IMG/VR virus record: IMGVR_UViG_3300015189_000004
Span: 1-57,358 of that record
Direction: 5' to 3' (one strand)
Origin: a virus
Length of the DNA: 57,358 nucleotides
In this document: positions 27,140-46,747 of the stretch, piece by piece
Position numbering within the stretch: the first letter of the stretch is position 1
Layout of the letters: each line of letters opens with the position of its first letter
Position numbers and translations under genes: made by a program
The notes under the pieces: model-generated
The model's input: only the letters and a program-made list of their open reading frames with translations
Database searches by the model: none
What the model was told of the DNA's origin: nothing

Positions 27140-27170
27140 TCGCAAGAAAACCACGTCCTATAATGAGACC
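27140..27170 (+). promoter_or_regulatory. Phage promoter motif copy 4, drives ncRNA A
   Basis: TCGCA at 27140 (overlapping the stop of the preceding gene) and TATAAT at 27159 (19 nt), followed by GAGACCC. No gene follows within 140 nt. Instead a structured RNA with a closing stem and U tract lies immediately downstream. Confidence 0.78.
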
Positions 27171-27251
27171 CATAACGCCTACCATCCTATCAACGGAGAA
27201 ACGGCTGACCACATAGTGGAAACCGCTAAAGCGGAATGGTATCTCATTTTT
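27165..27251 (+). ncRNA. Multi-hairpin ncRNA A
   Basis: After TATAAT, GAGA (27165-27168) and TACCAT (27180-27185) pair with the contiguous 3' arm ATGGTATCTC (27236-27245), leaving an 11-nt bulge. Inside are hairpins CCAC-ATA-GTGG (27209-27219) and CCGC-TAAA-GCGG (27223-27234). The 3' arm is followed by ATTTTT. There is no ORF. It belongs to the same architectural class as ncRNAs B-F but its hairpins are not repeats of each other. Confidence 0.65.
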
Positions 27252-27310
27252 CTGCCTCATCCTTCTAGAATCCTCTAGCAGGCAATTGTGAAACTAGTAA
27301 GGAGATAGGC

Positions 27311-27703
27311 ATGAACATGGACCAGCGTGCGAAGATCAAGGACCACTTCCGTGAGAACAAGAACGTGTATATCGCTGCTGGTGTTGGCGTCCTCGTCGGT
27401 GCTGCCGGCTGTGTCTTCCTGAAAGATTCATCCACACTTGTCTCGATTCGAGAGACTCTGAACTTCAAGTGGAAATCGCCGACGACAAATGTTGTTCAGT
27501 TGATCATTCCGCCACTTGGTGATGCTGGGAATGTTGTTCAGTGTGTTGAAACAGGAACGATCTATGCGAGTCAAGGTCAAGCAGCACGAGAGCTTGGTGT
27601 CCGTGCTACGGACGTCTCGAAGCATATGCATGGTGTTCAAGAGCACGTCGCTGGATTGCATCTAAAGCTTCTAGGCAAGGCTGGCGAACCACTCGCAGGA
27701 TAA
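27311..27703 (+). CDS. Membrane-anchored NUMOD1-like DNA-binding protein
   Basis: A 130-residue protein. A basic N-terminus precedes a membrane segment (about residues 20-40), a short linker with FKWKSPTTN, and a C-terminal domain (about residues 75-115) containing VQCVETGTIYASQGQAAREL and DVSKHMHG, the NUMOD1/helix-turn-helix pattern normally appended to homing endonucleases. No nuclease domain is present. A paralogue with the same plan lies at 39869. A membrane-tethered DNA- or RNA-binding protein is inferred. Confidence 0.75.
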   Translation: MNMDQRAKIKDHFRENKNVYIAAGVGVLVGAAGCVFLKDSSTLVSIRETLNFKWKSPTTNVVQLIIPPLGDAGNVVQCVETGTIYASQGQAARELGVRATDVSKHMHGVQEHVAGLHLKLLGKAGEPLAG

Positions 27704-27723
27704 ACCCGCCCTATAATGAGAAC
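27693..27723 (+). promoter_or_regulatory. Phage promoter motif copy 5, drives ncRNA B
   Basis: TCGCA at 27693, inside the last codons of the preceding gene, and TATAAT at 27712 (19 nt), followed by GAGAACC. Confidence 0.8.
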
Positions 27724-27800
27724 CACACTACCGGTCACCCGCTTACGGGAGGCTGACTACCCGCTTACGGGAAGTTGAAAAGTAGTGTGGTTCTCCTTTT
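27718..27800 (+). ncRNA. Multi-hairpin ncRNA B (two repeats)
   Basis: The closing stem is 14 perfect pairs: GAGAACCACACTAC (27718-27731) with GTAGTGTGGTTCTC (27782-27795), followed by CTTTT. Inside are two identical hairpins CCCG-CTTA-CGGG at 27738-27749 and 27760-27771. The stem begins with the first base after TATAAT. No ORF is present. Confidence 0.75.
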
Positions 27801-27803
27801 GCC

Positions 27804-27834
27804 ACGCAGGAAAACCACACCCTATAATGAGAAC
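27804..27834 (+). promoter_or_regulatory. Phage promoter motif copy 6, drives ncRNA C
   Basis: ACGCA at 27804 and TATAAT at 27823 (19 nt), followed by GAGAACC. It starts four nt after the U tract of ncRNA B. Confidence 0.8.
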
Positions 27835-27939
27835 CTAGTATCTGGATCACCCGATAAGGGAGATCTGAATGGCCACCCGATAAGGGAGACCTACTTGCCA
27901 CCCGATAAGGGAGACAACAGATACTAGGTTCTCATTTTT
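27829..27939 (+). ncRNA. Multi-hairpin ncRNA C (three repeats)
   Basis: The closing stem is 15 perfect pairs: GAGAACCTAGTATCT (27829-27843) with AGATACTAGGTTCTC (27919-27933), followed by ATTTTT. Three identical hairpins CCC-GATAA-GGG begin at 27850, 27876 and 27901 (period 25-26 nt), each within CACCCGATAAGGGAGA, with different spacers. No ORF is present. Confidence 0.78.
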
Positions 27940-27967
27940 CTGCCTAAACTCAACGAAAGGAATTGTT

Positions 27968-28090
27968 ATGTACTCACAGTGCAGAAAGCGTTACGGATTC
28001 TGGAACTTCATCGGAGACGTCCTCATGACGTGTCTCACAAGTGGGCTCTGGCTCATCTGGATCTTCGTTCGTGAGATGCGTCGTCGCTGA
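27968..28090 (+). CDS. Very small membrane protein
   Basis: A 40-residue protein with basic ends (CRKRYG and REMRRR) and one central membrane segment (about residues 13-34). ATG 27968 follows GAAAGGAATT. It lies one nt before the next start. Function unknown. Confidence 0.6.
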   Translation: MYSQCRKRYGFWNFIGDVLMTCLTSGLWLIWIFVREMRRR

Positions 28091-28091
28091 C

Positions 28092-28241
28092 ATGCGTCTC
28101 ATATTCTGGGTCTCCATGCTGATCATCGCCGCAGGGTTCATCGCACGCTGGTACCGCGTCAGTGCGCCTCAGTCTCAGACAACAAATCTGCCGGAGACTT
28201 CCGGTGAAACGCTCGAAAGGAACACCGATGACGCTGCTTGA
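28092..28241 (+). CDS. Very small membrane protein
   Basis: A 49-residue protein with an N-terminal membrane segment (residues 2-18) followed by a polar, acidic tail. It overlaps the DUF6353-like gene by 14 nt, and its last codons hold that gene's ribosome binding site (CGAAAGG). Function unknown. Confidence 0.6.
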   Translation: MRLIFWVSMLIIAAGFIARWYRVSAPQSQTTNLPETSGETLERNTDDAA

Positions 28242-29001
28242 CATCGCAAAGAAGGTTGAGAGACTTGCCATTGAGAACTCTCCGGCCATTCTGACAGCGA
28301 TTGCTGTTACTGGATCACTGGCCACAGCATATCTTGCTGGTTCGGCCTCGTTCAAGGCTGCGGATCTGATTGCGGACGAGCAGTACCGCTTGGACCTGCA
28401 CCCGACGGCACACCAGCTCGAAACCAAGGAGAAGTTCTACCTCGTATGGAAAGCCTATATCCCAGCCGCTGGTACGGGTGTCGTGACCATAGTGTGCATC
28501 ATCGGCGCCAACCGTATCGGATCACGTCGGGCTGCAGCAGTAGCTGCCGCGTACACGATATCCGAGAAGGCATTCACCGAGTACCGGGAAAAGGTCGTCG
28601 AGAAGATGGGCGAAGCCAAGGAGCGGAAGGTCCGCGATGAGGTGGCGCAGGATCAGGTCAATCGGAATCCTGCCGGATCTCGAGAGATCGTCATCACTGG
28701 CAATGGCGACGTGCTCTGCTATGACGTCTTCTCGGAGCGATATTTCGAGAGCGACATGGAGACGCTCAAGAAGGCTCAGAACGATCTGAACTACACGCTC
28801 CTCAACGATGGTTATGCCTCTCTCGGGGACTTCTACGGCAAGATTGGCCTCTCTGCGATGCCGTATTCCGAAGAAGTTGGCTGGACGAGTGAGCATCTGA
28901 TGGAGATGCAGCTCTCGACCACGCTTTCGGATGATCAGCGTCCGTGCATTTCGCTCGACTTCCGCGTGACACCTGTGCGGGACTACTACCGCGTTCACTG
29001 A
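28228..29001 (+). CDS. DUF6353-like membrane protein
   Basis: A 257-residue protein. Two membrane segments (about residues 20-40 and 72-92) lie before a helical region (AAYTISEKAFTEYREKVVEKMGEAKERKVRDEV, interrupted here) and a C-terminal globular part containing YDVFSERYFESDMETLKKAQNDLNY and a SLGDFYGKIGL element. Similar segments occur in the gene at 32080, so the two are paralogues. This phage family (DUF6353) has no known function. ATG 28228 is preferred because the upstream extension lies in another gene. Confidence 0.78.
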   Translation: MTLLDIAKKVERLAIENSPAILTAIAVTGSLATAYLAGSASFKAADLIADEQYRLDLHPTAHQLETKEKFYLVWKAYIPAAGTGVVTIVCIIGANRIGSRRAAAVAAAYTISEKAFTEYREKVVEKMGEAKERKVRDEVAQDQVNRNPAGSREIVITGNGDVLCYDVFSERYFESDMETLKKAQNDLNYTLLNDGYASLGDFYGKIGLSAMPYSEEVGWTSEHLMEMQLSTTLSDDQRPCISLDFRVTPVRDYYRVH

Positions 29002-29011
29002 GGCCTACGCC

Positions 29012-29042
29012 TCGCAAGAATTACGGGTCCTATAATGAGACC
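29012..29042 (+). promoter_or_regulatory. Phage promoter motif copy 7
   Basis: TCGCA at 29012 and TATAAT at 29031 (19 nt), followed by GAGACCC. It precedes the gene at 29067. Confidence 0.8.
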
Positions 29043-29066
29043 CATCCAACAAAAAGGAGAACCATC

Positions 29067-29261
29067 ATGTCCGAGCAGATCCCCGACATCAGCACCCTTC
29101 CCACCAAGAAGTTCGCATTCCTCAACAAGACCAACGCCATCCGCGTCGCCGTCGCAGCCACCGCTGTCGCCGTCGTCGCAGTACTCGTCGTCAAGTTGAA
29201 GGACGGCGCCTTCGAGGACGAGATCGGTGACCTGACCGTCGTCGAGACCCCCGAGTCCTGA
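29067..29261 (+). CDS. Small membrane protein
   Basis: A 64-residue protein with a polar N-terminus, one alanine/valine-rich membrane segment (about residues 25-43) and an acidic C-terminal tail (EDEIGDLTVVETPES). ATG 29067 follows AAAAGGAG. It forms a monocistronic unit between promoter copy 7 and the terminator at 29289. Function unknown. Confidence 0.7.
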   Translation: MSEQIPDISTLPTKKFAFLNKTNAIRVAVAATAVAVVAVLVVKLKDGAFEDEIGDLTVVETPES

Positions 29262-29288
29262 CACACCCCCAAGTTTGACCCCTCGAAA

Positions 29289-29330
29289 GGAAAGGCTTTG
29301 TAACCAACAATTACAGAGCCTTTCCTTTTT
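29289..29330 (+). terminator. Strong intrinsic terminator
   Basis: Fifteen-pair arms GGAAAGGCTTTGTAA (29289-29303) and TTACAGAGCCTTTCC (29311-29325), one G-U pair, loop CCAACAA, followed by TTTTT. Confidence 0.88.
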
Positions 29331-29357
29331 GCTTTGACCAATGATAAGGAATACTAG

Positions 29358-29777
29358 ATGCAACACAAAGATTTCGAACGCGTTCTCGATCAGCAGATCA
29401 AGATGTGTCAGGATGTTCTGGTCGTCAAATCCGGAAGCTACTCGACTGAGTCAGACAAACTGCACAACTTCAAGGTTGCCGCCGATATTCAGGGATGCAC
29501 GATCCCGCAGGCGGTTGCCGGGATGATGGTCAAGCACACGGTCTCGATCTATGACATGTGCGCCAGTGACAAGGGCTTCGACATGGAGATCTGGGACGAA
29601 AAGATCACAGACCACCTGAACTACCTGTTCTTGCTCAAGGCAGCAGTGCTCGAAGAGGCCTACGACACGCTTCCGTGGGCACTGCTTCCCTATTTCGAGT
29701 CGGGACCACCCGCTCCGTCGGCTCACGCCACAGTCAACACGGACGGCTCTATCCACCTGCATTGCACTGAGATCTGA
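29358..29777 (+). CDS. Conserved phage hypothetical protein
   Basis: A 139-residue soluble helical protein (LDQQIKMCQDVLVVKSGSY; LHNFKVAADIQGCTIPQAVAG; WDEKITDHLNYLFLLKAAVLEEAY). This arrangement matches a widespread phage family of unknown function in which the middle QAVAGMMVKHTVSIYDM block is conserved. The C-terminal 30 residues are proline-rich and variable. It is followed by a small membrane-protein gene. Confidence 0.72.
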   Translation: MQHKDFERVLDQQIKMCQDVLVVKSGSYSTESDKLHNFKVAADIQGCTIPQAVAGMMVKHTVSIYDMCASDKGFDMEIWDEKITDHLNYLFLLKAAVLEEAYDTLPWALLPYFESGPPAPSAHATVNTDGSIHLHCTEI

Positions 29778-29788
29778 GAGGCATACCC

Positions 29789-29917
29789 ATGCATGATCGT
29801 CTTACCAAGATCCAATACGTCGCTTTCATCGCTGGTGCTTCGGTTGGACTCCTCATGGCCCGAGGGTTCATTGCTGGCGTCAACAAGGTCTTCCCGCCCA
29901 ACCCCATCAAGAACTGA
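29789..29917 (+). CDS. Very small membrane protein
   Basis: A 42-residue protein with a single hydrophobic segment (about residues 11-31, containing GASVGLLMARGFIAG) and a polar C-terminus (NPIKN). ATG 29789 follows GAGAGGC. The gene lies 11 nt before the next start. Function unknown. Confidence 0.55.
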   Translation: MHDRLTKIQYVAFIAGASVGLLMARGFIAGVNKVFPPNPIKN

Positions 29918-29928
29918 AAGGCACACCC

Positions 29929-30486
29929 ATGCTCAAGAAAGACATCACATACCAGGACCTCGACGGCAACTCCCTCACGGAGACCTTCTGGTTCAACCTC
30001 TCCAAGGCTGAGATCGCCAAGATGGAGCTCAGCAAGAACGGCGGGGGCCTGACCGGCTACCTCAAGGCCATCGTGGAGGCAGAAGACGGAGAGGCCATCG
30101 TCACTACCTTCGAGGAGATCTTGACCAAGGCCTACGGCATCCGCAATGCGGACAACAAGGGCTTCGACAAGTCTCCTGAGATCTCGAAGCACTTCATGTC
30201 GACCGATGCTTATTCGGTTCTGTTCATGGAGCTCGTGACGGACGCTGAGGCAAGCTCGGCCTTCATTCGGGGGATCGTTCCGGCAGATCTCAGCGAGAAG
30301 ATGGACGACACCGTCCTTCCGGCTGGAATGCTTCCGAAGTCTGACTTCCGTCTCGAGAGTGTAGGGACGGATCTTCACAGTGCGGCTGAGACGGTCTCTG
30401 CTGCGGTCGAGACGGCAAAGACGTCGAACATGACTCTCGACGAGATGAAGGCTGCGATCCGCAAGGCCGAAGAGAACAGCCAGTAG
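29929..30486 (+). CDS. Conserved phage protein, tail-chaperone-like pattern
   Basis: A 185-residue protein beginning with KKDITYQDLDGNSLTETFWFN, then LSKAEIAKMELSKNGG, a central helical block (FEEILTKAYGIRNADNKGF; SPEISKHFMSTDAYSVLFMELVTD) and FIRGIVPADL. This family is common in phages of Gram-positives, where it is usually uncharacterised; the N-terminal pattern recalls tail assembly chaperones. Its place in the non-structural island argues against a simple tail role. C-ending codons suggest strong expression. Confidence 0.7.
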   Translation: MLKKDITYQDLDGNSLTETFWFNLSKAEIAKMELSKNGGGLTGYLKAIVEAEDGEAIVTTFEEILTKAYGIRNADNKGFDKSPEISKHFMSTDAYSVLFMELVTDAEASSAFIRGIVPADLSEKMDDTVLPAGMLPKSDFRLESVGTDLHSAAETVSAAVETAKTSNMTLDEMKAAIRKAEENSQ

Positions 30487-30595
30487 TTCATATTTGCGAG
30501 ATGGGAGTTAGCAAGGGTCCTTTCTCAGGGGTCTCGCCCTATTCCGGATGCTGACTTATAAACGCCAGCCGACGTTCCCATATCATGTGCCCACC
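30487..30595 (+). other. Noncoding segment with weak pairing
   Basis: No ORF with a ribosome binding site is visible. A long-range pairing ATGGGA/TCCCAT (about 30499 and 30577) could enclose smaller hairpins such as AGGG/CCCT. It lies between two genes and just upstream of promoter copy 8. It may be a terminator region or another structured RNA, but the evidence is weak. Confidence 0.3.
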
Positions 30596-30626
30596 TCGCA
30601 GAAACTCCACGCCCTATAATGAGACC
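30596..30626 (+). promoter_or_regulatory. Phage promoter motif copy 8
   Basis: TCGCA at 30596 and TATAAT at 30615 (19 nt), followed by GAGACCC. It precedes the gene at 30647. Confidence 0.8.
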
Positions 30627-30646
30627 CCTATGAAAGGAACACCACC

Positions 30647-30901
30647 ATGACCAAAACTGACATCACCAAAGCTGTCGTTCGCAACATCGTTGGCTACACC
30701 ACTTCGTTCACTATCGCAAACCTCATCCGTCGCAACCTCCAGACAGAATCCACCATTGAAACGGTCGAGATCTATGTCGGGTCGGTTGTCGTCGGTGCCA
30801 TGATTGCCGAGAGTGCACAGAAGTACGTAGACAAAGAGATTGACGACCTGACCGCCGCGTGGAAGTCCATGAAGACCACCATGAAAGCCAACCAGAACTA
30901 G
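30647..30901 (+). CDS. Small membrane-associated protein
   Basis: An 84-residue protein with moderately hydrophobic stretches (VGYTTSFTIANLI near residues 14-26 and YVGSVVVGAMIAESA near 43-57) and a charged C-terminal helix. It is a monocistronic unit between promoter copy 8 and the terminator at 30908. ATG 30647 follows GAAAGG. Function unknown. Confidence 0.7.
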   Translation: MTKTDITKAVVRNIVGYTTSFTIANLIRRNLQTESTIETVEIYVGSVVVGAMIAESAQKYVDKEIDDLTAAWKSMKTTMKANQN

Positions 30902-30907
30902 ACCCTC

Positions 30908-30948
30908 AAACCCACAGCCCCTAACACGGGCTTACGGTTTGCTTTTTT
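30908..30948 (+). terminator. Intrinsic terminator with CTAACAC loop
   Basis: AAACC/GGTTT and AGCCC/GGGCT pairs, loop CTAACAC, followed by GCTTTTTT (T run 30943-30948). It is the third copy of this terminator type. Confidence 0.85.
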
Positions 30949-30963
30949 GACAGAGGACTAATT

Positions 30964-31269
30964 ATGGAATATCCCGGCAACAGTTATGCCATGCGAGGCG
31001 AGATGAAGCGCGTTGCCAGCGAAGATCCAAGCACATATCAAAACACCTCTGGCCATTACTACGTTCGACTCAAATACACGGTGTGGCCTGAACTCTACGG
31101 GGACGAACTCCCGATTCCTTTTCCGACTCTCAAAGCAGCACTATTCTTTGCTGAGATCAACATCACGTCCACAGTAGTTCGTGCTCGTGTGTACACGCCA
31201 TCCGGCACTCTGGTCACTATATTTGCCTACTCCAATAGTGGGACAGTACGCAATGACCTTCTCTCTTAG
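30964..31269 (+). CDS. Hypothetical protein
   Basis: A 101-residue soluble protein with a beta-rich centre (GHYYVRLKYTVWPELYG; NITSTVVRARVYTPSGTLVTIF). ATG 30964 follows GAGGAC. It starts the longer operon that runs to the replication genes. No motif is recognised. Confidence 0.65.
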   Translation: MEYPGNSYAMRGEMKRVASEDPSTYQNTSGHYYVRLKYTVWPELYGDELPIPFPTLKAALFFAEINITSTVVRARVYTPSGTLVTIFAYSNSGTVRNDLLS

Positions 31270-31281
31270 ATTGAGGACAAA

Positions 31282-31932: not shown

Positions 31933-32069
31933 TGGCGAGCAACAGCAAAGAGCGAGAGTTGTTGAAGACTGTATATCCCAGCAAGCAGTGGGCTGAGAAA
32001 GTCAACAACATGACCACCGCTCAAGTCATAGCCGTAGTTATGCGGCTCAAGATGCAGAACAAACTTTAA
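31932..32069 (+). CDS. Very small basic protein
   Basis: A 45-residue protein whose ATG overlaps the previous stop. It is lysine-rich with the pattern LLKTVYPSKQWAEKVNNMTTAQVIAV, split by loops; small proteins like this follow the preceding family in many phages. Function unknown. Confidence 0.6.
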   Translation: MASNSKERELLKTVYPSKQWAEKVNNMTTAQVIAVVMRLKMQNKL

Positions 32070-32079
32070 GGAGTCAAGC

Positions 32080-32988: not shown

Positions 32989-33001
32989 AAGGATCGAAAT
33001 T

Positions 33002-34520: not shown

Positions 34521-34522
34521 GC

Positions 34523-39730: not shown

Positions 39731-39791
39731 CGTTACCCCACGGCTCTTGGTCAAGGGGTTTGTGTTCTCTTGGGACTACCAGCGAACAATC

Positions 39792-39872
39792 ATGGTAGAG
39801 ATTGAGATCACAGACCCCTTGGCCATCGCCGAAATTCAGCGAGACCTCATAACAAAGAAGGAGGCTTTATGA
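39792..39872 (+). CDS. Possible leader ORF coupled to NUMOD1 paralogue
   Basis: A 26-residue ORF ending as ATGA on the next start. It carries the next gene's AAGGAGG site in its last codons. There is no good ribosome binding site of its own. It may be real only as a coupling leader. Confidence 0.3.
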   Translation: MVEIEITDPLAIAEIQRDLITKKEAL

Positions 39873-40258
39873 AACACGAGATCAAGAAACATTTCCAAGA
39901 GAACAAACGAGTGTATCTCGTGGGTGCAGGGTGTCTTGTTGTTGGGGTTGCTGGAGCACTTATGCTTACGCGTAGCGATGCTCGAGTGACGGTAGACGCT
40001 TGGAAGTTCATCGAGTTCAAATGGAAGTCCCCAACGACAAACAACATAATGCAAACGGTCATGGAACGTCGAGGGCACCCGGGCTATGTTGTTCGATGTA
40101 TTGAGACTGGCAAGAAGTTTGCAAGCCAAAACCAAGCTGCTTCTGAAATGGGGCTAAACGCGGGGAATCTTTGTTCGCATTTGAACGGTAAGTATGCTCA
40201 CGTTCAAGGATTCACGTTTGAACGTCTTGGCGAAGCCATTGCCTCCGGGGTCGCATAA
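39869..40258 (+). CDS. Membrane-anchored NUMOD1-like protein, second copy
   Basis: A 129-residue paralogue of the gene at 27311: basic N-terminus (KHEIKKHFQENKRVYLV), a membrane segment (about residues 15-33), FKWKSPTTN, then the NUMOD1/HTH region (VVRCIETGKKFASQNQAAS; NLCSHLNGKYAHVQGF). In both copies a promoter motif and an ncRNA follow directly, so protein and ncRNA form a repeated genetic unit. Confidence 0.76.
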   Translation: MKHEIKKHFQENKRVYLVGAGCLVVGVAGALMLTRSDARVTVDAWKFIEFKWKSPTTNNIMQTVMERRGHPGYVVRCIETGKKFASQNQAASEMGLNAGNLCSHLNGKYAHVQGFTFERLGEAIASGVA

Positions 40259-40281
40259 AATACACGCTCTATAATGAGACC
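40251..40281 (+). promoter_or_regulatory. Phage promoter motif copy 9, drives ncRNAs D/E
   Basis: TCGCA at 40251 lies in the last codons of the NUMOD1-like gene. TATAAT at 40270 is 19 nt after its start, followed by GAGACCAACC. Confidence 0.8.
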
Positions 40282-40410
40282 AACCACTGGACGCCCGTTA
40301 AGGGTATCCGACAATGGACGCCCGTTAAGGGTATCCGACAATGGACGCCCGTTAAGGGTATCCAATACCAGACGCCCGTTAAGGGTATCGAAAAGTGGTT
40401 GGTCTCATTT
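40276..40410 (+). ncRNA. Multi-hairpin ncRNA D (four repeats, 27-nt period)
   Basis: The closing stem is 13 perfect pairs: GAGACCAACCACT (40276-40288) with AGTGGTTGGTCTC (40394-40406), then ATTT. Four hairpins of the form GGA-CG-CCC-GTTAA-GGG-TA-TCC begin at 40289, 40316, 40343 and 40370, an exact 27-nt period; the last differs at its outer bases. Spacers are six nt. No ORF with a ribosome binding site lies here. Confidence 0.8.
40289..40390 (+). repeat. Four direct repeats of 21 nt, period 27
   Basis: Copies start at 40289, 40316, 40343 and 40370. The first three are identical and the fourth differs at its first and last base. They form the hairpins inside ncRNA D. Spacers are too short and too alike for a CRISPR array. 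Confidence 0.95.
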
Positions 40411-40495
40411 GAACCCATAACGTATAGGAGACCCCAGAAGGGGACACCTTTGCCGGAGACCCCAGAAGGGGACACTGGTAGTTATGGGTTCTCAT
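40411..40495 (+). ncRNA. Multi-hairpin ncRNA E (two repeats)
   Basis: GAACCCATAAC (40411-40421) pairs with GTTATGGGTTC (40481-40491). Inside are two identical hairpins CCCC-AGAA-GGGG (40432-40443 and 40460-40471), each within GAGACCCCAGAAGGGGACAC. It has no promoter motif of its own and directly follows ncRNA D, so the two may be one two-domain transcript. No long T tract follows. Confidence 0.68.
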
Positions 40496-40590
40496 AAACA
40501 AGATTAGAACTCCAATCAACGAGTCACCCCTTTAGGGGAGGCCATGTTATGCACTGCAGGCTTGGGTTGTACACGGATTCTTGTTTTCTC
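40496..40590 (+). ncRNA. Possible further hairpin RNA G
   Basis: AAACAAGA (40496-40503) can pair with TCTTGTTT (40579-40586), followed by a T-rich stretch. The enclosed region has the hairpin CCCC-TTTA-GGGG (40527-40538), similar to those of ncRNAs C-E. No promoter motif is seen, and the closing stem is short, so this may be only a leader of the next gene. Confidence 0.35.
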
Positions 40591-40624
40591 ATTTCTGCTT
40601 TCAAACAAAGAAGGAGTAGCAATT

Positions 40625-41050
40625 GTGCAGACATTTCTGCCATACGAAAGCTTCGAGGAGTCAGCACGAGTTCTTGACCGTCAGCGCTTAGGCAAGCAAC
40701 GTGTTGAGGGTTACCAAATCCTCAAGGCACTTGTCCTAGGGACGGGATGGATTCATCATCCGGCAACAAAGCAGTGGGCTGGCCACGAGTTCTGGTTAGT
40801 GGACTACATTCTCGTCATGATCGACGAGTGGACACGTCGAGGCTACAAGGACTCCGTCCGGGACAAGATCGATGCTCTTCTTCTGGAGTATCCACTTCCT
40901 TTGTGTTCTCGTCCAGACTGGCTTGGGTATGAGCCATACCACGCATCACACCGAGCAAACCTTCTTCGTAAGGATCAGTTCTACTACGGTCAGTTCGGAT
41001 GGACCGAAGATTCAACCACGCCATATTACTGGCCATCGCACAACAACTAA
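40625..41050 (+). CDS. MSMEG_6728-like pyrimidine-dimer glycosylase family protein
   Basis: A 141-residue protein that begins VQTFLPYESFEESARVLDRQRLGKQRVEG, split here by helix turns, followed by GWIHHPATKQWAGHEFWL and a C-terminal RANLLRKDQFYY. This matches the MSMEG_6728 / pyrimidine dimer DNA glycosylase family of actinobacteria. A DNA-repair role (excision of UV dimers) is inferred. GTG 40625 after GAAGGAG is preferred to the long upstream ATG extension, which runs through noncoding hairpin sequence. Confidence 0.78.
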   Translation: MQTFLPYESFEESARVLDRQRLGKQRVEGYQILKALVLGTGWIHHPATKQWAGHEFWLVDYILVMIDEWTRRGYKDSVRDKIDALLLEYPLPLCSRPDWLGYEPYHASHRANLLRKDQFYYGQFGWTEDSTTPYYWPSHNN

Positions 41051-41062
41051 GGAGCACTAAAT

Positions 41063-41560
41063 ATGGCTTACAACGACAACAACGTTCTCATGGAGGACGT
41101 TCGTATCATCTTCCGAAACTTCGCTGGCAAGGAGGGGATGTACAACCGAGAAGGCGACCGCAACTTCGCAGTTCTCCTCGATCCTCAGCTCGCGGAAGCG
41201 ATGTCCAAGGACGGCTGGAACGTCAAGACCCTCAAGGCGCGAGAAGAGGAGGACGAGCCTCAGGCATATCTGCAGATCTCGGTCAACTTCAAGGGCCGTC
41301 CGCCGCAGATCGTCATGATCACCTCTCGTGGTCGCAACCATCTCGGTGAAGACGAGGTCGAGCTTCTGGACTGGGCAGACATCCGTCAGACGGACCTGAT
41401 CATCCGGCCCTACGAGTGGGCTGTCAACGGCAAGACTGGAGTCAAGGCATATCTCCAGTCGATCTACGTGACCATCGAGGAAGACGCACTGCAGCTCAAG
41501 TACGCCGATGTGCAGGACATCCAGTCTCGCAGCGGACGTACCGACGACCGGGAGGACTGA
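41063..41560 (+). CDS. Probable single-stranded DNA-binding protein
   Basis: A 165-residue acidic beta-rich protein (VLMEDVRIIFRNFAGKEGMYN; RNFAVLLDPQLAEAM; YLQISVNFKGRPPQIVMIT; IIRPYEWAVNGKTGVKAYLQSIYVT, split) with an acidic C-terminus (SGRTDDRED). Such proteins are found beside primase-polymerases in phages and are predicted to bind ssDNA; the acidic tail fits. ATG 41063 follows AAGGAG. C-ending codons suggest high expression. Confidence 0.68.
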   Translation: MAYNDNNVLMEDVRIIFRNFAGKEGMYNREGDRNFAVLLDPQLAEAMSKDGWNVKTLKAREEEDEPQAYLQISVNFKGRPPQIVMITSRGRNHLGEDEVELLDWADIRQTDLIIRPYEWAVNGKTGVKAYLQSIYVTIEEDALQLKYADVQDIQSRSGRTDDRED

Positions 41561-41742
41561 TGGACGAAGAGTTCATTCGACCGGCAACCTGTCAGTTCTG
41601 TCTCGCTGATCCGAAATACACCGGCTTGGGTCCTGATCCAACAAAAAGATGTCCTGTCTGTGGATCGGCATACTGTGGCCCTCGTCGATCTAAAGAGTAT
41701 GTAACCCTAGTTGAGGCGCAACTCGTCTCGAGAGAGGACTGA
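41560..41742 (+). CDS. Small zinc-ribbon protein
   Basis: A 60-residue protein with two Cys pairs (CQFC at residues 11-14 and CPVCGSAYC near residues 31-39), a zinc-ribbon pattern. ATG 41560 overlaps the previous stop (TGATG). It may be a nucleic-acid-binding accessory of the ssDNA-binding protein. Confidence 0.65.
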   Translation: MDEEFIRPATCQFCLADPKYTGLGPDPTKRCPVCGSAYCGPRRSKEYVTLVEAQLVSRED

Positions 41743-41743
41743 C

Positions 41744-42370
41744 ATGGACAGCGATACCTGGGTTCAGAGGATTCGGGCATGGTGGAACTGGACGTTCTAC
41801 TACCGCGTGACACGAAACCGGGAGCAGTTGCTTCTGTGGTTTGTCGGTCATCTGCCTCGAGAGGTTGCCTATCGTGCAGCCATTCGGGTGATTGCTGACG
41901 CGACTACCGGTGCATATGGCAACCAGAACGTTCCGGAGTTGTATGCCATGGATGCAATCGAACGTTGGCCAAAGCGTCTGGGTGGTGATCGTACTAACAG
42001 AAAGACTAGGGACGATCAAGTTCTTCTGACTGATGAGCAGCTCGGCCGGTACACCTATCAAGACGATCAGAGATCTCACGATCTTGCTGTAGCGATCTGT
42101 CACACAGTCGATTACATCGGCACGGAGAACCTTCCGGCAGTTCCGGGTTGGTCTTGGTTTGATGCCCTCGATCAGCATTATCCAGAGATGGCTCAGCAGT
42201 TCGTTTCCGGTCGTGTCGGTGAGAAGGGTGGTCGATGCTCATCTTGTCATACCATGCAGACGATTCGTTACGGGATGATCAGAGCGCATGCCGACTCGAA
42301 CGAGAAGATCTGTTCGGGTTCAGGGTTCCCTCCGCTTGATCCACCTCTGAACGTGTCGAACGGTGAATAG
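41744..42370 (+). CDS. Hypothetical protein with C-terminal zinc motif
   Basis: A 208-residue protein. Its first 70 residues (WNWTFYYRVTRNREQLLLWFVGHLPREVAYRA, split; AIRVIADATTGAYGNQNVPE) match a block found in many phage proteins of unknown function. The C-terminus has CSSCH near residue 165 and a further Cys, perhaps a zinc site. ATG 41744 lies one nt after the previous stop. Confidence 0.68.
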   Translation: MDSDTWVQRIRAWWNWTFYYRVTRNREQLLLWFVGHLPREVAYRAAIRVIADATTGAYGNQNVPELYAMDAIERWPKRLGGDRTNRKTRDDQVLLTDEQLGRYTYQDDQRSHDLAVAICHTVDYIGTENLPAVPGWSWFDALDQHYPEMAQQFVSGRVGEKGGRCSSCHTMQTIRYGMIRAHADSNEKICSGSGFPPLDPPLNVSNGE

Positions 42371-42662
42371 CTCACACATATTCACGTACTGGAATGGTCT
42401 TCCCACAACAGCTTCACGTGGGACGGCCGTAGTCGCTGACGCACCAGAGTTCTCCCTTTACTGGGCAAGGGCTTTGGTGGGTCAGCGCATTCCAGTTGTG
42501 AAGGTCTACCTTGACGGCGTGAACTACGGCGGGGGTATCACATATCTCGACAACCGCGATGGCTCAGGGTGGCATAAGGTCACTGCGGGTCGCGGTTCGT
42601 CGAGGTATGCACACGGAGAAGTGTCCATCGAAGAAGACAGCTTTGAGGAAGATCATGCATAA
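42363..42662 (+). CDS. Hypothetical protein
   Basis: A 99-residue protein starting at GTG 42363 and overlapping both neighbours by 8 nt. It is beta-rich with YWARALVGQRIPVVKVYLDG and a Gly-rich turn, and ends in an acidic tail. No family is recognised. Confidence 0.6.
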   Translation: MNSSHIFTYWNGLPTTASRGTAVVADAPEFSLYWARALVGQRIPVVKVYLDGVNYGGGITYLDNRDGSGWHKVTAGRGSSRYAHGEVSIEEDSFEEDHA

Positions 42663-42834
42663 CGAAGCGGTGCAGACTCTTATTCTGTTGGAGCCTGACG
42701 AAGCACACACAGATAGCTGCAGAGCACACAAGGACCCGTCCAAGTGCAACTGCTATCTTCTCCAGAATGCCAAAACTCGAGTCACCGCGCTGGAGCAGGC
42801 GGGGTGGACAAATATCAGGAGGCACTCAGTATGA
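42655..42834 (+). CDS. Small Cys-containing protein
   Basis: A 59-residue protein with LILLEPDEAHTDSCRAHKDP and a CNC motif, possibly metal-binding, followed by an amphipathic helix. ATG 42655 overlaps the previous gene. Function unknown. Confidence 0.58.
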   Translation: MHNEAVQTLILLEPDEAHTDSCRAHKDPSKCNCYLLQNAKTRVTALEQAGWTNIRRHSV

Positions 42835-43211
42835 ACGAAGCGAAGCGTTACCGCAGGAAAGCTCGAGCCATCGACAAACTCATCCCAACAGACGACATCG
42901 TTCTCGAAGCGATGCAGTTGACTGGTCGTCCTGTTGAGACCATGCATGTCTGTGAGTGGATTCGAGACAGCGGATATCCATGGCTTCTCGGAAACGCGAC
43001 TCAGCCCGAAACGCTTGTGCCCGAGGGTGGTGGAAAAGCCGGCGACCCCGGTATCTATCTCGACCCAGCAACGGGAGAGCTTGTCGTTCGAATGCGCGAT
43101 CACGATGAGCGGGGTAAGTATGGGGAGTGGTGGCTTCATTTCCCTGACGGAAGTTTTCGAGCGTACTCTCCGGAGTTCTTTGCAGCCATGTACGAACCGC
43201 TCAACGACTGA
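42831..43211 (+). CDS. Hypothetical protein
   Basis: A 126-residue protein with a basic N-terminal helix (NEAKRYRRKARAIDKL), a middle region with METMHVCEWI-like pattern and a C-terminal beta segment (YGEWWLHFPDGSFRAYSPEFFAA). ATG 42831 overlaps the previous stop (ATGA). Function unknown. Confidence 0.62.
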   Translation: MNEAKRYRRKARAIDKLIPTDDIVLEAMQLTGRPVETMHVCEWIRDSGYPWLLGNATQPETLVPEGGGKAGDPGIYLDPATGELVVRMRDHDERGKYGEWWLHFPDGSFRAYSPEFFAAMYEPLND

Positions 43212-43249
43212 TCCCAACCACCCGCCCCCAGTACTAAGAAGGAGTAAAT

Positions 43250-43594
43250 GTGTCTACCACGATCCCCAAAGAGTTCGTCGGAACGCCCACAGTCACCCCC
43301 GGAAAGATTGCTGATTTTACCGAGTGGTATGTGAGCATGCTCGGCGACATGGACAAGGCTAGCGACATGGATGACGCCCTCTACTACTGGGGGTTCAGCG
43401 ATGCGATGGAGTCAGTACTTACGGTTCTCCACAACAATACCGCCGAAGCTGTCAAGGTCGTAGTCAAGCCGGGTCGTCATCTCATCACCAAGAAGCGTGT
43501 CATCATCGGCGTGACGATCTTTGTCTTGTACAAGAACCGGACTCGAATCAAAACCAAGCTCAATGAGGTCAAGGACCACCTCAAGCACATCTGA
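43250..43594 (+). CDS. Hypothetical protein with basic C-terminal hydrophobic helix
   Basis: A 114-residue protein starting at GTG 43250 behind AAGGAG. An acidic helical half (YVSMLGDMDKASDMDDALYYW) is followed by a segment that may insert in the membrane (VIIGVTIFVLY near residue 85) flanked by lysines and a basic tail. Function unknown. Confidence 0.65.
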   Translation: MSTTIPKEFVGTPTVTPGKIADFTEWYVSMLGDMDKASDMDDALYYWGFSDAMESVLTVLHNNTAEAVKVVVKPGRHLITKKRVIIGVTIFVLYKNRTRIKTKLNEVKDHLKHI

Positions 43595-43625
43595 TCTACA
43601 CAAACTCTGAAAGAGGAATCGAATT

Positions 43626-44084
43626 ATGTCTTTGAAGCCAGTGAAGTATGTCCGCAAGCCGTTCTACATCGACGCCATACAGGTTACCACAGAGAACCTC
43701 AACGAGGTTGCCAAGTGGTGCCAGGGTGAGGTGCGCTGGGCATGCAGAGACCCCAAGGGGACTGCTGAGAAGGATGCGTACGTCAAGGTCCGTGTTCATC
43801 GTCCTCTGAATGAGCGTCAGACTCAGGCCTTCGTCGGTGACTGGGTTCTGTATGCCGGAACCGGGTACAAGGTCTACACCCTCAAGGCGTTCACCAACAG
43901 CTTCGAGGTTGTTGACAGCGTCTCGAGGTATGAGATGGAGCGGATCGAGAACGAGCGTGAGGCAGAGGCCAAGATCGTCCGTGAAGAGAAGTTCAACCAG
44001 ATCGAGCTCACCGAGAAGATCGAAGAGCTCATGACCGTCAACCAGCAGGCAGTGCTTGCTCCCGTCGAATTCAAGGAAGCCTGA
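43626..44084 (+). CDS. Conserved phage hypothetical protein
   Basis: A 152-residue protein. The first 95 residues (KYVRKPFYIDAIQVTTENL; EVAKWCQGEVRW; FVGDWVLYAGTGYKVYTLKAF) are a common phage domain of unknown function that also occurs alone. The C-terminal 55 residues are a charged helix. ATG 43626 follows GAAAGAGG. Confidence 0.7.
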   Translation: MSLKPVKYVRKPFYIDAIQVTTENLNEVAKWCQGEVRWACRDPKGTAEKDAYVKVRVHRPLNERQTQAFVGDWVLYAGTGYKVYTLKAFTNSFEVVDSVSRYEMERIENEREAEAKIVREEKFNQIELTEKIEELMTVNQQAVLAPVEFKEA

Positions 44085-44085
44085 C

Positions 44086-44178
44086 ATGAACGAGCACACG
44101 GCCAACGTGGCCACCATCACCATCATTGTCCTCGGGGTTTTGGCCCTGAAGGTTCTCAAGAAGAAGGGTTTGTTATGA
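44086..44178 (+). CDS. Tiny membrane protein
   Basis: A 30-residue ORF with one membrane segment (residues 7-24) and a lysine-rich end (LKKKGLL). ATG 44086 follows AAGGAAG, and the stop overlaps the next gene (ATGA). Function unknown. Confidence 0.55.
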   Translation: MNEHTANVATITIIVLGVLALKVLKKKGLL

Positions 44179-44480
44179 GCGAACAGCCTGCAGTTCCCGC
44201 AGTGACCCAGATCGTCATCCCGCCGAAGCCCCGGCCGACGCGTGAGCTTGAGATCGAGGCTGACATGGCCGTTCGATATCTCGAGCAGTTCACTCGCAGT
44301 GACCGGCTTGACCCGGACCTGCGGATGGCGATGACGGGCATGGGTGTCTTCTGTGTTGGTGTGATGGTTATCGCCGTCAAGGCGGGCATCGCACAGGAAG
44401 CACGGATGACTTCTACGTTGAATGGGTACGTCGATCAGCTCAACGCTTTGGTCGAGATGTCTCAGGTCAACGCGCTGTAA
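44175..44480 (+). CDS. Membrane protein, small
   Basis: A 101-residue protein. The N-terminal 55 residues are soluble (PPKPRPTRELEIEADMAVRY), a membrane segment follows (about residues 56-74, GMGVFCVGVMVIAVKAG) and the C-terminus is polar. Function unknown. It is the last gene before a 318-nt noncoding region. Confidence 0.65.
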   Translation: MSEQPAVPAVTQIVIPPKPRPTRELEIEADMAVRYLEQFTRSDRLDPDLRMAMTGMGVFCVGVMVIAVKAGIAQEARMTSTLNGYVDQLNALVEMSQVNAL

Positions 44481-44482
44481 CA

Positions 44483-44765
44483 ACTCCTCTGGGGGAGTCT
44501 AAACCGCTTAAGCCCAGAGCGTCGGGACTCGATTTGTAGGGGGTCGGGTCCCGGGTGGCTGTGAAGGACAACACAGAAGTCTAATTGACGGTAGCCTGTC
44601 GATATAGATCTAAATAAAAAACCGGTTCGTGGTTTACCCCGCGAGGGGATCGAAGAGGATCGACTACTCCAAGTCGAAACTCGATTACCTTTATGCATGG
44701 AGCTTAAGGTAAACGAACGACGGTGGTGGGGCTATGGACAGCGACAGGTTCTTAGCCCCACTGCC
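44483..44765 (+). ncRNA. Densely structured noncoding region H
   Basis: The 318 nt between the genes hold no ORF with a ribosome binding site but many hairpins: ACTCC/GGAGT (44483-44498) or the alternative CTCTGGG/CCCAGAG (44487-44519), CGGGACTCGA/TCGGGTCCCG (44523-44553, one G-U), CCCC-GCGA-GGGG with a GNRA loop (44637-44648), TCGACT/AGTCGA (44660-44677), TTACCTT/AAGGTAA (44685-44712) and TGGGGCTA/TAGCCCCA (44727-44760). The first two are mutually exclusive, as in a switch. No copy of the phage promoter motif is present. A structured RNA or a long regulatory leader is likely. Confidence 0.5.
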
Positions 44766-44798
44766 CTTTAACCCACCCAAATTTTGAAGGAGATCGGC

Positions 44799-45026
44799 AT
44801 GACCAAAGCTCGGCGTCAGGGTTTCTATACCCGAGGCAAAAGTAACCGCAGCAGCAAGCGTCTGTACATGACTGGATCTCCGGTCGAGAAGCTCATCAAC
44901 TTGATTGAGCGCGAGGCCAAGCACAACCCACACGCAAGCGCTTTGCAGAGGAAGCGTGACGAAGACGCACGAGCCTTCCGGCTCAGCGAAAACCAAACCA
45001 AAATTTCAGAAAAGGAATTGTCATGA
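44799..45026 (+). CDS. Small basic protein
   Basis: A 75-residue strongly basic protein (TKARRQGFYTRGKSNRSSKR; helical KLINLIEREAKHN). ATG 44799 follows GAAGGAG. The stop overlaps the lipoprotein start (ATGA). It could bind nucleic acid. Function unknown. Confidence 0.62.
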   Translation: MTKARRQGFYTRGKSNRSSKRLYMTGSPVEKLINLIEREAKHNPHASALQRKRDEDARAFRLSENQTKISEKELS

Positions 45027-45451
45027 AGAAGTCCATTGCTTCGATCATCGCTATCTGCACCATAGCTTTTCTGTCTGCCTGCTCCAGTCCTGCTGTCGAG
45101 GACGCTGCATCGGTAGCCGCTCCGGTTGCCGTCGTCACCACCACGGAGGCTCCTGTGTCTTGGAACGGTACTTGGAAGGCCGAGGGAATGTCGGCTGTCA
45201 TCAAGGACAATCTCATCACGATCAACATCGTCTCTCCCGACACCACCTCGCTCTACTGGCAGGGTGACTGGGATATGAGCAAGCCGGCTAAGGATGGGAC
45301 TGACATGGTCTCGATCGGGGATGTCGCAGCAATGAGTGCGTCGATGCTCGGCTCGCAGGACAACAAGAAGGCCTTCTCTTTTGAGAACGATGAGCTGAAG
45401 TTCTCGTTCTCGATGATGGGGACCACCAAGACCATTCGTCTGAAGAAGTAG
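45023..45451 (+). CDS. Phage-encoded lipoprotein
   Basis: A 142-residue protein with a typical lipoprotein signal: basic start (MKKS), hydrophobic stretch and lipobox LSAC (Cys20), followed by a Ser/Ala/Pro/Thr-rich linker and a beta-rich domain (WNGTWKAEGMSAVIKDNLITINI; KKAFSFENDELKFSFSM). It is exported and anchored outside the membrane. Phage lipoproteins often block superinfection by sealing receptors or DNA-entry channels; this role is inferred here. Confidence 0.8.
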   Translation: MKKSIASIIAICTIAFLSACSSPAVEDAASVAAPVAVVTTTEAPVSWNGTWKAEGMSAVIKDNLITINIVSPDTTSLYWQGDWDMSKPAKDGTDMVSIGDVAAMSASMLGSQDNKKAFSFENDELKFSFSMMGTTKTIRLKK

Positions 45452-45456
45452 GGGCT

Positions 45457-45648
45457 ATGAAGATCAAGTGTGAGAAGCACAACCGTAGGGTCATGATCAT
45501 CCCAAAGCCGCTGGGTATTCCTCAGGTCACTCTTCATCGAGATGACGGGTCACACTGCGATCTTCTCGGCGCATACATCATGGGTAAGAAGGTCGTATCT
45601 TTTCGTGCGATTGATCACCACATCATGGTCATGAAGGAGCTCAAGTGA
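45457..45648 (+). CDS. Hypothetical small protein
   Basis: A 63-residue basic protein with Cys and His residues (KIKCEKHNRR near the start; DGSHCD near residue 30), possibly a small metal-binding fold, and a C-terminal beta segment. It starts six nt after the lipoprotein stop. Function unknown. Confidence 0.6.
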   Translation: MKIKCEKHNRRVMIIPKPLGIPQVTLHRDDGSHCDLLGAYIMGKKVVSFRAIDHHIMVMKELK

Positions 45649-45881
45649 CTCAGAACGTTTTCGACAACGCTGAGCCAGACCCAACGGTTCCGGGGATGAC
45701 CTTGGAGAAGCTCAACGCGATGATCAAGTCAGAGAACATCTGGCATGAGGGTCAAGTCGCTCTGGACCTCAGTCGGTACGAGGCAACTGCTCGCACTGAG
45801 AAAGCTCGTCACGATTTTCGACTGCAGGAACTCGAGATGATCATCACGACTCTCAAAAGTCTGCCTAGAGGAGAACAATGA
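45645..45881 (+). CDS. Hypothetical small helical protein
   Basis: A 78-residue protein starting at GTG 45645 and overlapping both neighbours (GTGA and ATGA). The C-terminal half is a long charged helix (YEATARTEKARHDFRLQELE). Function unknown. Confidence 0.6.
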   Translation: MTQNVFDNAEPDPTVPGMTLEKLNAMIKSENIWHEGQVALDLSRYEATARTEKARHDFRLQELEMIITTLKSLPRGEQ

Positions 45882-46111
45882 GCATTTTCACACTGTCCGA
45901 GGATGACCCAATCGTTATTCGGGCGAAGGGTCTCAAGGATGCAGGCATGACTGAGGTCGGCTTCATTCCCGAAGACGAGTACGGCTGCAAGATCTACGGT
46001 CGGAACGAGTACGGACGACTGATGCTCATCGGCATTCACTCAAAGAGCTACGGGTGCCCGAAGAAGAGCACCGACAGCATCCAGATCACAGCAAGTCTAC
46101 TAAGGAGGTGA
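45878..46111 (+). CDS. Hypothetical small protein
   Basis: A 77-residue protein with an acidic first half and an alternating beta pattern (VGFIPEDEYGCKIYGRNEYGR). Its last codons contain the very strong ribosome binding site for the mini-ORF at 46117. Function unknown. Confidence 0.6.
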   Translation: MSIFTLSEDDPIVIRAKGLKDAGMTEVGFIPEDEYGCKIYGRNEYGRLMLIGIHSKSYGCPKKSTDSIQITASLLRR

Positions 46112-46113
46112 TC
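46102..46113 (+). promoter_or_regulatory. Full-length anti-SD match upstream of mini-ORF
   Basis: AAGGAGGTGATC is a 12-nt perfect complement of the bacterial 16S rRNA 3' end, three nt before ATG 46117. It is the strongest such site in the window and serves only a 10-codon ORF. Confidence 0.7.
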
Positions 46114-46116
46114 GGC

Positions 46117-46149
46117 ATGAGACCCAAGTCCAACACCCACGCACTCTGA
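46117..46149 (+). CDS. Mini-ORF 1 (10 codons), leader-peptide-like
   Basis: ATG 46117 encodes MRPKSNTHAL and stops at TGA 46149, just upstream of the tRNA-like element. The exceptionally strong ribosome binding site suggests that translation here matters in itself, as for a leader or stalling peptide. Confidence 0.4.
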   Translation: MRPKSNTHAL

Positions 46150-46180
46150 GTATAGCTCGTCGCCGGCCCATAACTGAATA

Positions 46181-46259
46181 GCGCTGCACGGCACCTCATA
46201 GGGCTGTGGGAACTCACTCGATATCGAGGAGTAAAGAGGTTCGAACCCTCTTCAGCGCA
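46181..46259 (+). ncRNA. tRNA-like RNA without anticodon loop
   Basis: A 79-nt element. The acceptor-like stem is GCGCTGC (46181-46187) with TCAGCGC (46252-46258), six pairs and one mismatch, with A46259 as discriminator. The T arm AGAGG-TTCGAAC-CCTCT (46235-46251) is fully canonical. A D-like arm pairs CACGGC with GCTGTG around loop ACCTCATAGG. The anticodon position is instead a near-perfect hairpin (CTC-a-CTCGA / TCGAG-GAG, 46213-46231) with no 7-nt loop. No CCA is encoded. It cannot decode in this form; a tRNA mimic or a degenerate tRNA are the options. Confidence 0.55.
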
Positions 46260-46296
46260 CGATCCTTTAAACGGTCATTACTAAGGTGGTGATGTC

Positions 46297-46335
46297 ATGC
46301 AACCGAGCGTTAAACGCGCTCACGCTTTCCGTTAA
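46297..46335 (+). CDS. Mini-ORF 2 (12 codons)
   Basis: ATG 46297 encodes MQPSVKRAHAFR and stops at TAA 46335. It is preceded by TAAGGTGGTGATGTC, a near copy of the leader of mini-ORF 1. The coding stretch contains a hairpin GAGCG/CGCTC. Downstream, GGTGGG/CCCACC pairs around the GGGATCTCTAGCC region. Leader-like function is inferred. Confidence 0.35.
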   Translation: MQPSVKRAHAFR

Positions 46336-46407
46336 GGAGTTGGTGGGGATCTCTAGCCGGGGTTCCCACCGCTCTGACAAACCCAAATTCAACCAAAGGG
46401 AACCAAA

Positions 46408-46644
46408 ATGAGAACCACTAAACTGACGACTCCCAAGATGAACAAAGACCTCGCATCAGACAAGCCTGCTGGTTACTGCCGAGAATGTGCACACTTCATT
46501 CTCCTCAACAACGAAACCGGCATGGTCCGCAAGCATGGTCGTAAGGCTGACGGTGTGTACTGCAAGGGCTCGCATCGTGCGCCTTCGAAGGCTGCAGACT
46601 CATATCTCGTGAAGGACTGGACCCCTCCGCGTAGAAGCTCGTAG
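46408..46644 (+). CDS. Small zinc-binding protein
   Basis: A 78-residue basic protein with CRECAHF (Cys24 and Cys27) and a later Cys (VYCKGSH), a plausible zinc site. ATG 46408 follows AAAGGGAACC. The promoter motif copy 10 starts in its last codons. Function unknown. Confidence 0.65.
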   Translation: MRTTKLTTPKMNKDLASDKPAGYCRECAHFILLNNETGMVRKHGRKADGVYCKGSHRAPSKAADSYLVKDWTPPRRSS

Positions 46645-46669
46645 GAATTACACGCCATATAATGAAGAG
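46639..46669 (+). promoter_or_regulatory. Phage promoter motif copy 10, drives ncRNA F
   Basis: TCGTA at 46639 and TATAAT at 46658 (19 nt). It is followed by GAAGAGAAGACC instead of GAGACCC, the most diverged downstream part of the set. Confidence 0.75.
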
Positions 46670-46747
46670 AAGACCCTTAATCAGGTAAGTAATCGACAGG
46701 CCTAAACGAACCTCGACTACCGAGGATTATTATGGTCTTCTCTATTT
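46664..46747 (+). ncRNA. Multi-hairpin ncRNA F
   Basis: AGAGAAGACC (46666-46675) pairs perfectly with GGTCTTCTCT (46734-46743), followed by ATTTGCC. Inside are CCTCG-ACTAC-CGAGG (46711-46725) and a small CCT-TAATC-AGG hairpin (46676-46685 area). As in ncRNAs B-D the closing stem starts just after TATAAT, here at the third base. No ORF is present. Confidence 0.65.

Follow-up and report, generated by a model that had tools for sequence, protein, structure and literature searches.

Predicted closed multi-head RNAs linked with genes for a membrane-anchored helix-turn-helix protein in a virus record and related phages

Short RNAs in which several like hairpins show one binding motif are known from the sponges CsrB/CsrC and RsmY/RsmZ. 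Among phages, the RNA pseudo-ToxI evolves by repeat expansion (PMC3475682, PMC8860590), and the promoter of YonO of SPbeta was undetermined when this polymerase was described (PMC5467207). The present analysis concerns positions 1–57,358 of the IMG/VR virus record IMGVR_UViG_3300015189_000004, a stretch of 57,358 bases (hereafter, the window) with similarity to Gordonia, Arthrobacter and Streptomyces phages in its polymerase region. In an earlier note made from the letters of the window, a family of compact multi-hairpin RNAs (A–F) had been proposed, with coordinates and sequences that were correct on re-check. RNAs B–E and their relatives in other phages form one real and conserved family of predicted RNAs, with a shared plan and multivalent identical heads, the head being the short apical stem and loop of each internal hairpin. 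The gene with which they are linked encodes a membrane-anchored protein that has a NUMOD-type helix-turn-helix (HTH). Related phage loci or contigs are designated by L-numbers; the first set comprised 39 relatives, further contigs were fetched later, and cultured Arthrobacter, Gordonia and Rhodococcus phages with many more RNAs of this kind are among them.

The internal hairpins of the window RNAs (Table 1) were found, as previously claimed, to be exact repeats within each RNA and to differ between RNAs: CCCGCTTACGGG occurs twice in B, CCCGATAAGGG three times in C, CCCGTTAAGGG four times in D and CCCCAGAAGGGG twice in E. In the same scan, run on 40 phage loci, other exact hairpin repeats were located in coding DNA only, and mono-shuffled loci yielded about 1.3 in total. 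The closing stems, for which 9–15 pairs had been given, measured 11–19 base pairs (bp) in B–E and were perfect or near-perfect: 17 bp with one mismatch in B (27715–27731/27782–27798), and perfect stems of 19 bp in C (27826–27844/27918–27936), 16 bp in D (40273–40288/40394–40409) and 11 bp in E (40411–40421/40481–40491). RNA folding returned B, C and E as the closed multi-hairpin RNAs drawn earlier. In the minimum-energy fold of D, copies 2 and 3 were merged into one long hairpin, so the shape of this RNA is not settled by folding alone. The proposal of one design at five or more loci stood for B, C, D and E, which are closed and carry identical hairpins, but only in part for A and F, closed RNAs whose hairpins are unlike. 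Neither did a promoter and a U-rich end turn up at every locus: E, which directly continues D, has no promoter and no U-run, and the U-run of D is weak (ATTTG).

A closing stem followed by a U-run is terminator-like, and the RNAs might lack any function in trans, being elaborate terminators or insulators, or might act through kissing of their loops. This explanation seems quite improbable, as the genome also has simple terminators (e.g., window 26841–26875) and termination needs no identical heads. As to kissing, antisense units of this type had been suggested in the earlier note, and by eye the loops of B and C, and those of two RNAs of L073, are partly complementary. However, most loops are of only 3–5 nucleotides (nt), and such complementarity is found nowhere else, neither in the arrays with ATTGC heads nor in D and E; the suggestion is not supported.

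Each hairpin has a common build, with the apical head, usually an unpaired position beneath it, and then a covarying outer stem that had been overlooked before. Considering 40 unique modules, position 1 outward from the head was mostly unpaired, its pairing (9/40) being no more frequent than in shuffles, and each of the positions 2–7 was paired above shuffles. At positions 4–6, 100 of 120 cells were paired, versus 65.0 ± 4.2 for 3′ flanks reshuffled among all modules and 84.9 ± 4.2 for those reshuffled within arrays; in either test, 0 of 5000 shuffles reached the observed value. Among the copies inside one RNA, the head was constant and the outer stems were mostly different yet still paired. 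Since same-head copies carry differing paired outer stems, recent tandem duplication is not the explanation of the repeats, with the partial exception of D. Loss of the hairpin structure in related phages had been set beforehand as the outcome that would speak against the family; the structure is conserved, under selection for structure, and the finding stands.

These data bear also on whether the heads work as DNA. They could be imperfect palindromes in the duplex, bound by the adjacent HTH protein, which would tether phage DNA to the membrane. The NUMOD domains of I-HmuI and I-TevI bind DNA, and arrays of sites adjoining the gene of their binder are common. Yet the outer stems vary in sequence and keep their pairing, and at positions 4–7 of the sense strand G.T pairs outnumber A.C mismatches by 27 to 11, which matches the expectation for RNA of that strand. 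Furthermore, each array is bounded by a promoter, a closing stem and usually a U-run, and in RNA G, which adjoins the 3′ side of E and is absent from the earlier note, two-sided changes across relatives were seen in 16 of 32 predicted pairs. DNA sites are thus very improbable, and of all the explanations weighed here this one is rated lowest. RNA G overlaps the start of a mechanically called open reading frame (40544–41050), the true start of which is probably further downstream.

Same-plan RNAs with other heads are present in other phages, and the heads GATAA, GTTAA, ATTGC and TTTA recur between phages (Table 1). In the ATTGC heads the loop is constant and its closing pairs vary (GTC/GAC, ATC/GAT or GC/GC). 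The third RNA of L073 has the scaffold of window RNA C, near letter-for-letter in the closing and outer stems, and CCG(TTATG)CGG stands in place of CCC(GATAA)GGG in each of its three heads. This is a concerted head swap on one scaffold. When the scaffold of C was scanned for, the only match was in L073, and blastn of D–E against phage records retrieved, besides short chance matches, only the promoter stretch in Gordonia phages. A GATAA pattern match in L173/L174 was set aside, as it corresponded to a long tandem array without closing stems. In ReqiPepy6 (L167 21560–21800) and Odesza (L177 after 945), more repeated-head hairpins, e.g., GCC(ATTG)GGT and CTTTATGAGG, were noticed 3′ of the first linked RNA, apparently in tandem with it or in the same transcript.

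Concerning the genes next to the RNAs, B–C lie directly 3′ of gene 1 and D–E directly 3′ of gene 2, and both genes encode proteins of the same family (PHROG 27818), a link absent from the earlier note. The proteins of this family combine a membrane helix at the N-terminus with a NUMOD-type HTH at the C-terminus. The predicted structure of the gene 2 product consists of the membrane helix and a confident C-terminal domain (predicted local distance difference test, pLDDT, above 90), and the top PDB matches of the model of this domain were I-HmuI and sCTP-23166, both DNA-binding. PHROG and profile searches with genes 1 and 2 revealed no HNH, GIY-YIG or other nuclease or toxin domain. A search with gene 2 as the sole query gave no relative, while a search with an alignment did. 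In three successive rounds of collecting, 27 distinct family genes were obtained (13 + 7 + 7), and the RNA downstream of each one was judged by reading the downstream DNA. A structured RNA was found directly 3′ of 24 of the 27, with the TATAAT of the candidate promoter motif (see below) at most 30 nt past the stop codon, and with its TCGCA element usually at the stop or in the last codons of the linked gene. It is because the RNA promoter begins in these last codons that RNA and protein gene look like matched partners. The first RNA carries at least two same-loop heads in 14 of the 24 linked cassettes. The exceptions to the linkage are L071, with three multi-hairpin RNAs that are however upstream, L193, where the RNA is the leader of a coding gene, and L079, which has no promoter. 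Considering the 39 first relatives and the fetched contigs, there is one clear repeated-head RNA that does not adjoin a family gene (L041 5477).

Two apparent RNAs, at L104 minus strand 12763 (excluded from the 40 modules) and L059 minus strand 3707, were set aside because they are inside a reading frame. In both, the promoter motif and a closed two-hairpin element occur within the frame of a membrane-NUMOD gene, between the membrane helix and the HTH.

A protein ligand for the RNAs is plausible and, judging from the comparison of phages, the candidate would be the adjacent membrane-anchored NUMOD-type HTH protein; that it binds the heads is the leading hypothesis. In 19 cassettes, with heads assigned by eye, the identity of the recognition helix (12 residues) was associated with the sharing of a head when the rest of the protein was controlled for (partial r 0.29, permutation p 0.0024), and the identity of the rest of the protein bore no relation to it (r −0.04, p 0.60). 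In four TTTA cassettes, the helix fits the pattern xPxRISE(H/N)LxG. The Odesza and Magel proteins are 82% identical overall, differ mostly in the HTH region and have different recognition helices; the Odesza RNA is similar to that of Magel with a changed head, CTATGC for CTTTAG.

The best explanation, to be taken as tentative, is a two-component phage cassette, formed by the membrane-HTH protein and by the multi-head RNA as its multivalent ligand. The first component would be the small protein, with its membrane helix at the N-terminus and its NUMOD-type HTH at the C-terminus. The second one would be one or more RNAs, produced from a promoter of the phage's own kind that begins within the final codons of the gene encoding the first. 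The ends of the RNA would pair and close it, with the closing stem and the following U-run usually acting also as terminator, and the RNA would show between one and four copies of one head, in most cases at least two, on outer stems. Several HTH domains would dock on the identical heads of one RNA, and the role of the complex in the cell would be that docking clusters, titrates or switches the membrane protein. A further-reading version, which we find doubtful, is that of an exchangeable-specificity system, where the membrane NUMOD HTH would read the RNA head, the cognate RNA would carry this head in several copies on a constant scaffold, heads and recognition helices would change together, and the promoters would be read by the YonO-like polymerase of the phage.

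Several observations weigh against the reading of heads by the protein. Known NUMOD domains bind duplex DNA, and it is we who infer RNA binding here. ATTGC, the commonest head, pairs with unlike helices, their mean identity being 0.44 versus 0.42 for different-head pairs. One gene can precede RNAs with two or three different heads (genes 1 and 2, and L073), and a repeated head is missing from 10 of the 24 linked RNAs. The head–helix test itself is small, depends on heads read by eye and does not fully remove relatedness by permutation.

The main rival of the linked protein as ligand is a decoy for host factors. According to it, the RNAs would be counter-defence sponges that mimic the site bound by an RNA-binding protein or a nuclease of the host, the number of head copies would set their capacity, and the membrane protein would share the locus without binding. 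The heads differ among RNAs and phages yet recur across genera (ATTGC in Arthrobacter and Gordonia phages), as would be expected for a common host target, several RNAs with different heads occur per locus, and there are precedents of RNA mimicry by phages in pseudo-ToxI (PMC3475682) and Racrs (PMC10651486). However, the decoy explains neither the placement of the promoter, in most cases, within the final codons of genes from one protein family, nor the head–helix association, and it has no known host target. On balance, we consider it unlikely.

The tight coupling of gene and RNA would also fit an RNA-antitoxin-like addiction module, i.e., a type III toxin-antitoxin system with reversed order of parts, in which the membrane protein would be harmful and the multi-head RNA would neutralise it; repeated RNA units are found also in ToxIN (PMC8860590). 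Against this, no nuclease or toxin domain was found, the RNA comes after the gene and not before it, and there is no pseudoknot repeat, which makes such a module improbable.

Concerning transcription, a promoter weight matrix was grown from the window and the 39 related loci until it converged. The motif, TCGCA-N7-ACA-N5-TATAATGAGACCCC, had 303 sites in these sequences, 302 of them on the coding strand. In eight cultured phages (of Arthrobacter, Rhodococcus, Streptomyces, Gordonia, Microbacterium and Curtobacterium) 5–16 sites were counted per phage, without exception on the coding strand; shuffled sequence had none. The closing stems scored after promoters without further conditions included many false positives in coding DNA, and U-runs, repeats and gene ends were therefore used as criteria. 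The start of TCGCA is 19 nt upstream of TATAAT, and the closing stems regularly start at the G immediately after TATAAT. Across from the final T of TATAAT, the base was A in 31, T in 22, G in 6 and C in 5 of 64 automatic closures, some of them probably due to chance; in ordinary terminators, A was found there in 2 of 21. If the closing stems are RNA helices, transcription would start at or just before the G after TATAAT, and not 6–7 nt downstream. For sigma70 promoters, the −35 hexamer is expected about 17 nt upstream of TATAAT and the start 6–7 nt downstream of it. A sigma70 reading of the motif was rejected, because the closing stems begin too close to TATAAT, and TCGCA is too close to it for a −35 box.

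The window encodes a polymerase of PHROG 4291 (Table 1), a family which we take to be that of the YonO-like single-chain enzymes. Full-length relatives of it occur in 24 of the 39 related contigs, many of the remainder being fragments, and in 249 phage records the match spans at least 80% of the polymerase. The shared motif is a candidate promoter of this polymerase; alternatively, it may be read by a phage activator acting with the host RNA polymerase. HTH-profile matches were observed at both ends of the polymerase (residues 31–73 and 879–904).

Table 1. Features of the window, with positions in window coordinates, and heads of the RNAs of related phages (aa, amino acids; z, fold z-score; E, expectation value)
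Feature	Location	Strand	Description
RNA A	27165..27252	+	closed, three unlike hairpins, upstream of gene 1; z −2.3
RNA B	27718..27799	+	heads CCCG(CTTA)CGGG at 27738, 27760; z −7.2
RNA C	27829..27941	+	heads CCC(GATAA)GGG at 27850, 27876, 27901; z −6.9; scaffold common to L073 RNA3
RNA D	40276..40411	+	heads CCC(GTTAA)GGG at 40294, 40321, 40348, 40375; z −7.4; head also in L184
RNA E	40410..40494	+	heads CCCC(AGAA)GGGG at 40432, 40460; z −5.4; without own promoter
RNA F	46664..46747	+	closed, two unlike hairpins, no family gene adjoining; z −3.2
RNA G	40494..40600	+	conserved, C(TTTA)G head; common to Magel, Pherobrine, Odesza, ReqiPepy6
Candidate promoter of A	27138..27164	+	TCGCA..TATAAT, TATAAT at 27159
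Candidate promoter of B	27692..27717	+	TATAAT at 27712, 11 nt past gene 1 coding end; overlaps its last codons and stop
Candidate promoter of C	27803..27828	+	TATAAT at 27823
Candidate promoter of D	40250..40275	+	TATAAT at 40270; overlaps gene 2 end
Candidate promoter of F	46638..46663	+	TATAAT at 46658
Gene 1	27311..27703	+	130 aa, membrane helix and NUMOD-like HTH; PHROG 27818 E 6e-25; PF22083 E 3e-4, 20.6 bits, below cut-off
Gene 2	39869..40258	+	129 aa, gene 1 paralogue, membrane helix and NUMOD-like HTH; PF22083 E 8e-9, 35.4 bits, cut-off 27
YonO-like single-chain RNA polymerase	54183..56897	+	904 aa, PHROG 4291, 1260 bits, profile positions 6-903/909
ATTGC head	L073, L059, L175, L186, L190, Arthrobacter phage Qui, Gordonia phages Conley, Artorias, Pherobrine		
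GATAA head	L073		also window C
GTTAA head	L184		also window D
ATCTAC head	L071		
GCAT head	L025		
CGTATTGAA and ATTGA heads	L187		
TTTA head	L194		

Other structured RNAs were noticed in the same phages. In ReqiPepy6 (L167 14193–14300) and Chikenjars (L169 12524–12630), a tRNA or tRNA-like RNA is inside the same cassette of promoter, closing stem and U-run; judging from these cassettes, phage RNAs in general may be expressed within the closed scaffold as a frame. Another RNA that recurs, in which a T-arm-like hairpin comes after an ACGAATG-like stretch, has the same promoter in L015 2462, L045 1719, L104 minus strand 12414, L165 11033 and L167 14316; those of L015, L045, L104 and L167 have no Rfam match. 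In the window, 44486–44800 and 46110–46400 are long non-coding stretches. Within the second one, 46186–46268 is tRNA-like, with a T-arm (GAGG-TTCGAAC-CCTC) and an acceptor-like pairing (GCGCTG/CAGCGC); ARAGORN and Rfam report no tRNA there, nor did ARAGORN find any in the window as a whole.

With respect to described systems, the earlier view that the RNAs fit no described class held, in that the window has no match in Rfam 15 at gathering score. Searched against Rfam at E ≤ 1, 27100–27980 and 40200–46800 gave no sense-strand match, only chance matches on the opposite strand, and a literature search limited to open-licence papers found no paper describing these RNAs. To our knowledge, no described RNA class has a closed 5′–3′ scaffold, two to four same heads, a concerted head swap and a promoter starting inside a membrane HTH gene. 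CsrB/CsrC and RsmY/RsmZ are alike in showing one motif on several similar hairpins of a short RNA. Unlike in them, there is no GGA in the loops (CTTA, GATAA, GTTAA and AGAA, and ATTGC, TTATG and GCAT in relatives), the heads differ between RNAs, and the partner gene is that of a membrane HTH protein, not CsrA.

The nearest precedents are pseudo-ToxI and Racrs, neither of which is a match on defining features. In ToxIN and pseudo-ToxI, a protein gene also adjoins an RNA of repeated units. In type III toxin-antitoxin systems, however, the RNA is upstream and in the same transcript, whereas here it lies after the gene, behind a promoter of its own, and is closed by a stem; the repeats of ToxIN are pseudoknots, and those found here are hairpins with differing outer stems; and the adjacent protein has no ToxN, CptN or TenpN domain, matching only NUMOD-like profiles and PHROG 27818. 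Racrs are, likewise, small phage non-coding RNAs with a hairpin behind their own promoter (PMC10651486), but the hairpins described here are not solitary, as two to four heads, with about 11–20 nt common to the copies, stand on a closed scaffold.

As in SPbeta with YonO, the single-chain RNA polymerase is phage-encoded; here, many copies of one motif are found in the non-structural region, and phages with a YonO-like polymerase offer a sharply defined promoter motif for the question left open in PMC5467207. Cultured phages that grow on laboratory hosts, i.e., Qui, Artorias, Conley, Magel and Odesza, make the claims on head reading and on the promoter directly testable. Finally, the C-terminal HTH fold of the linked protein is like the NUMOD of the homing endonucleases I-HmuI and I-TevI, with the difference that it is fused here to a membrane helix and has no nuclease domain. 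If the protein does read the heads, a DNA-binding fold would have been turned to RNA, and its natural pairs with the heads would show how specificity changes.

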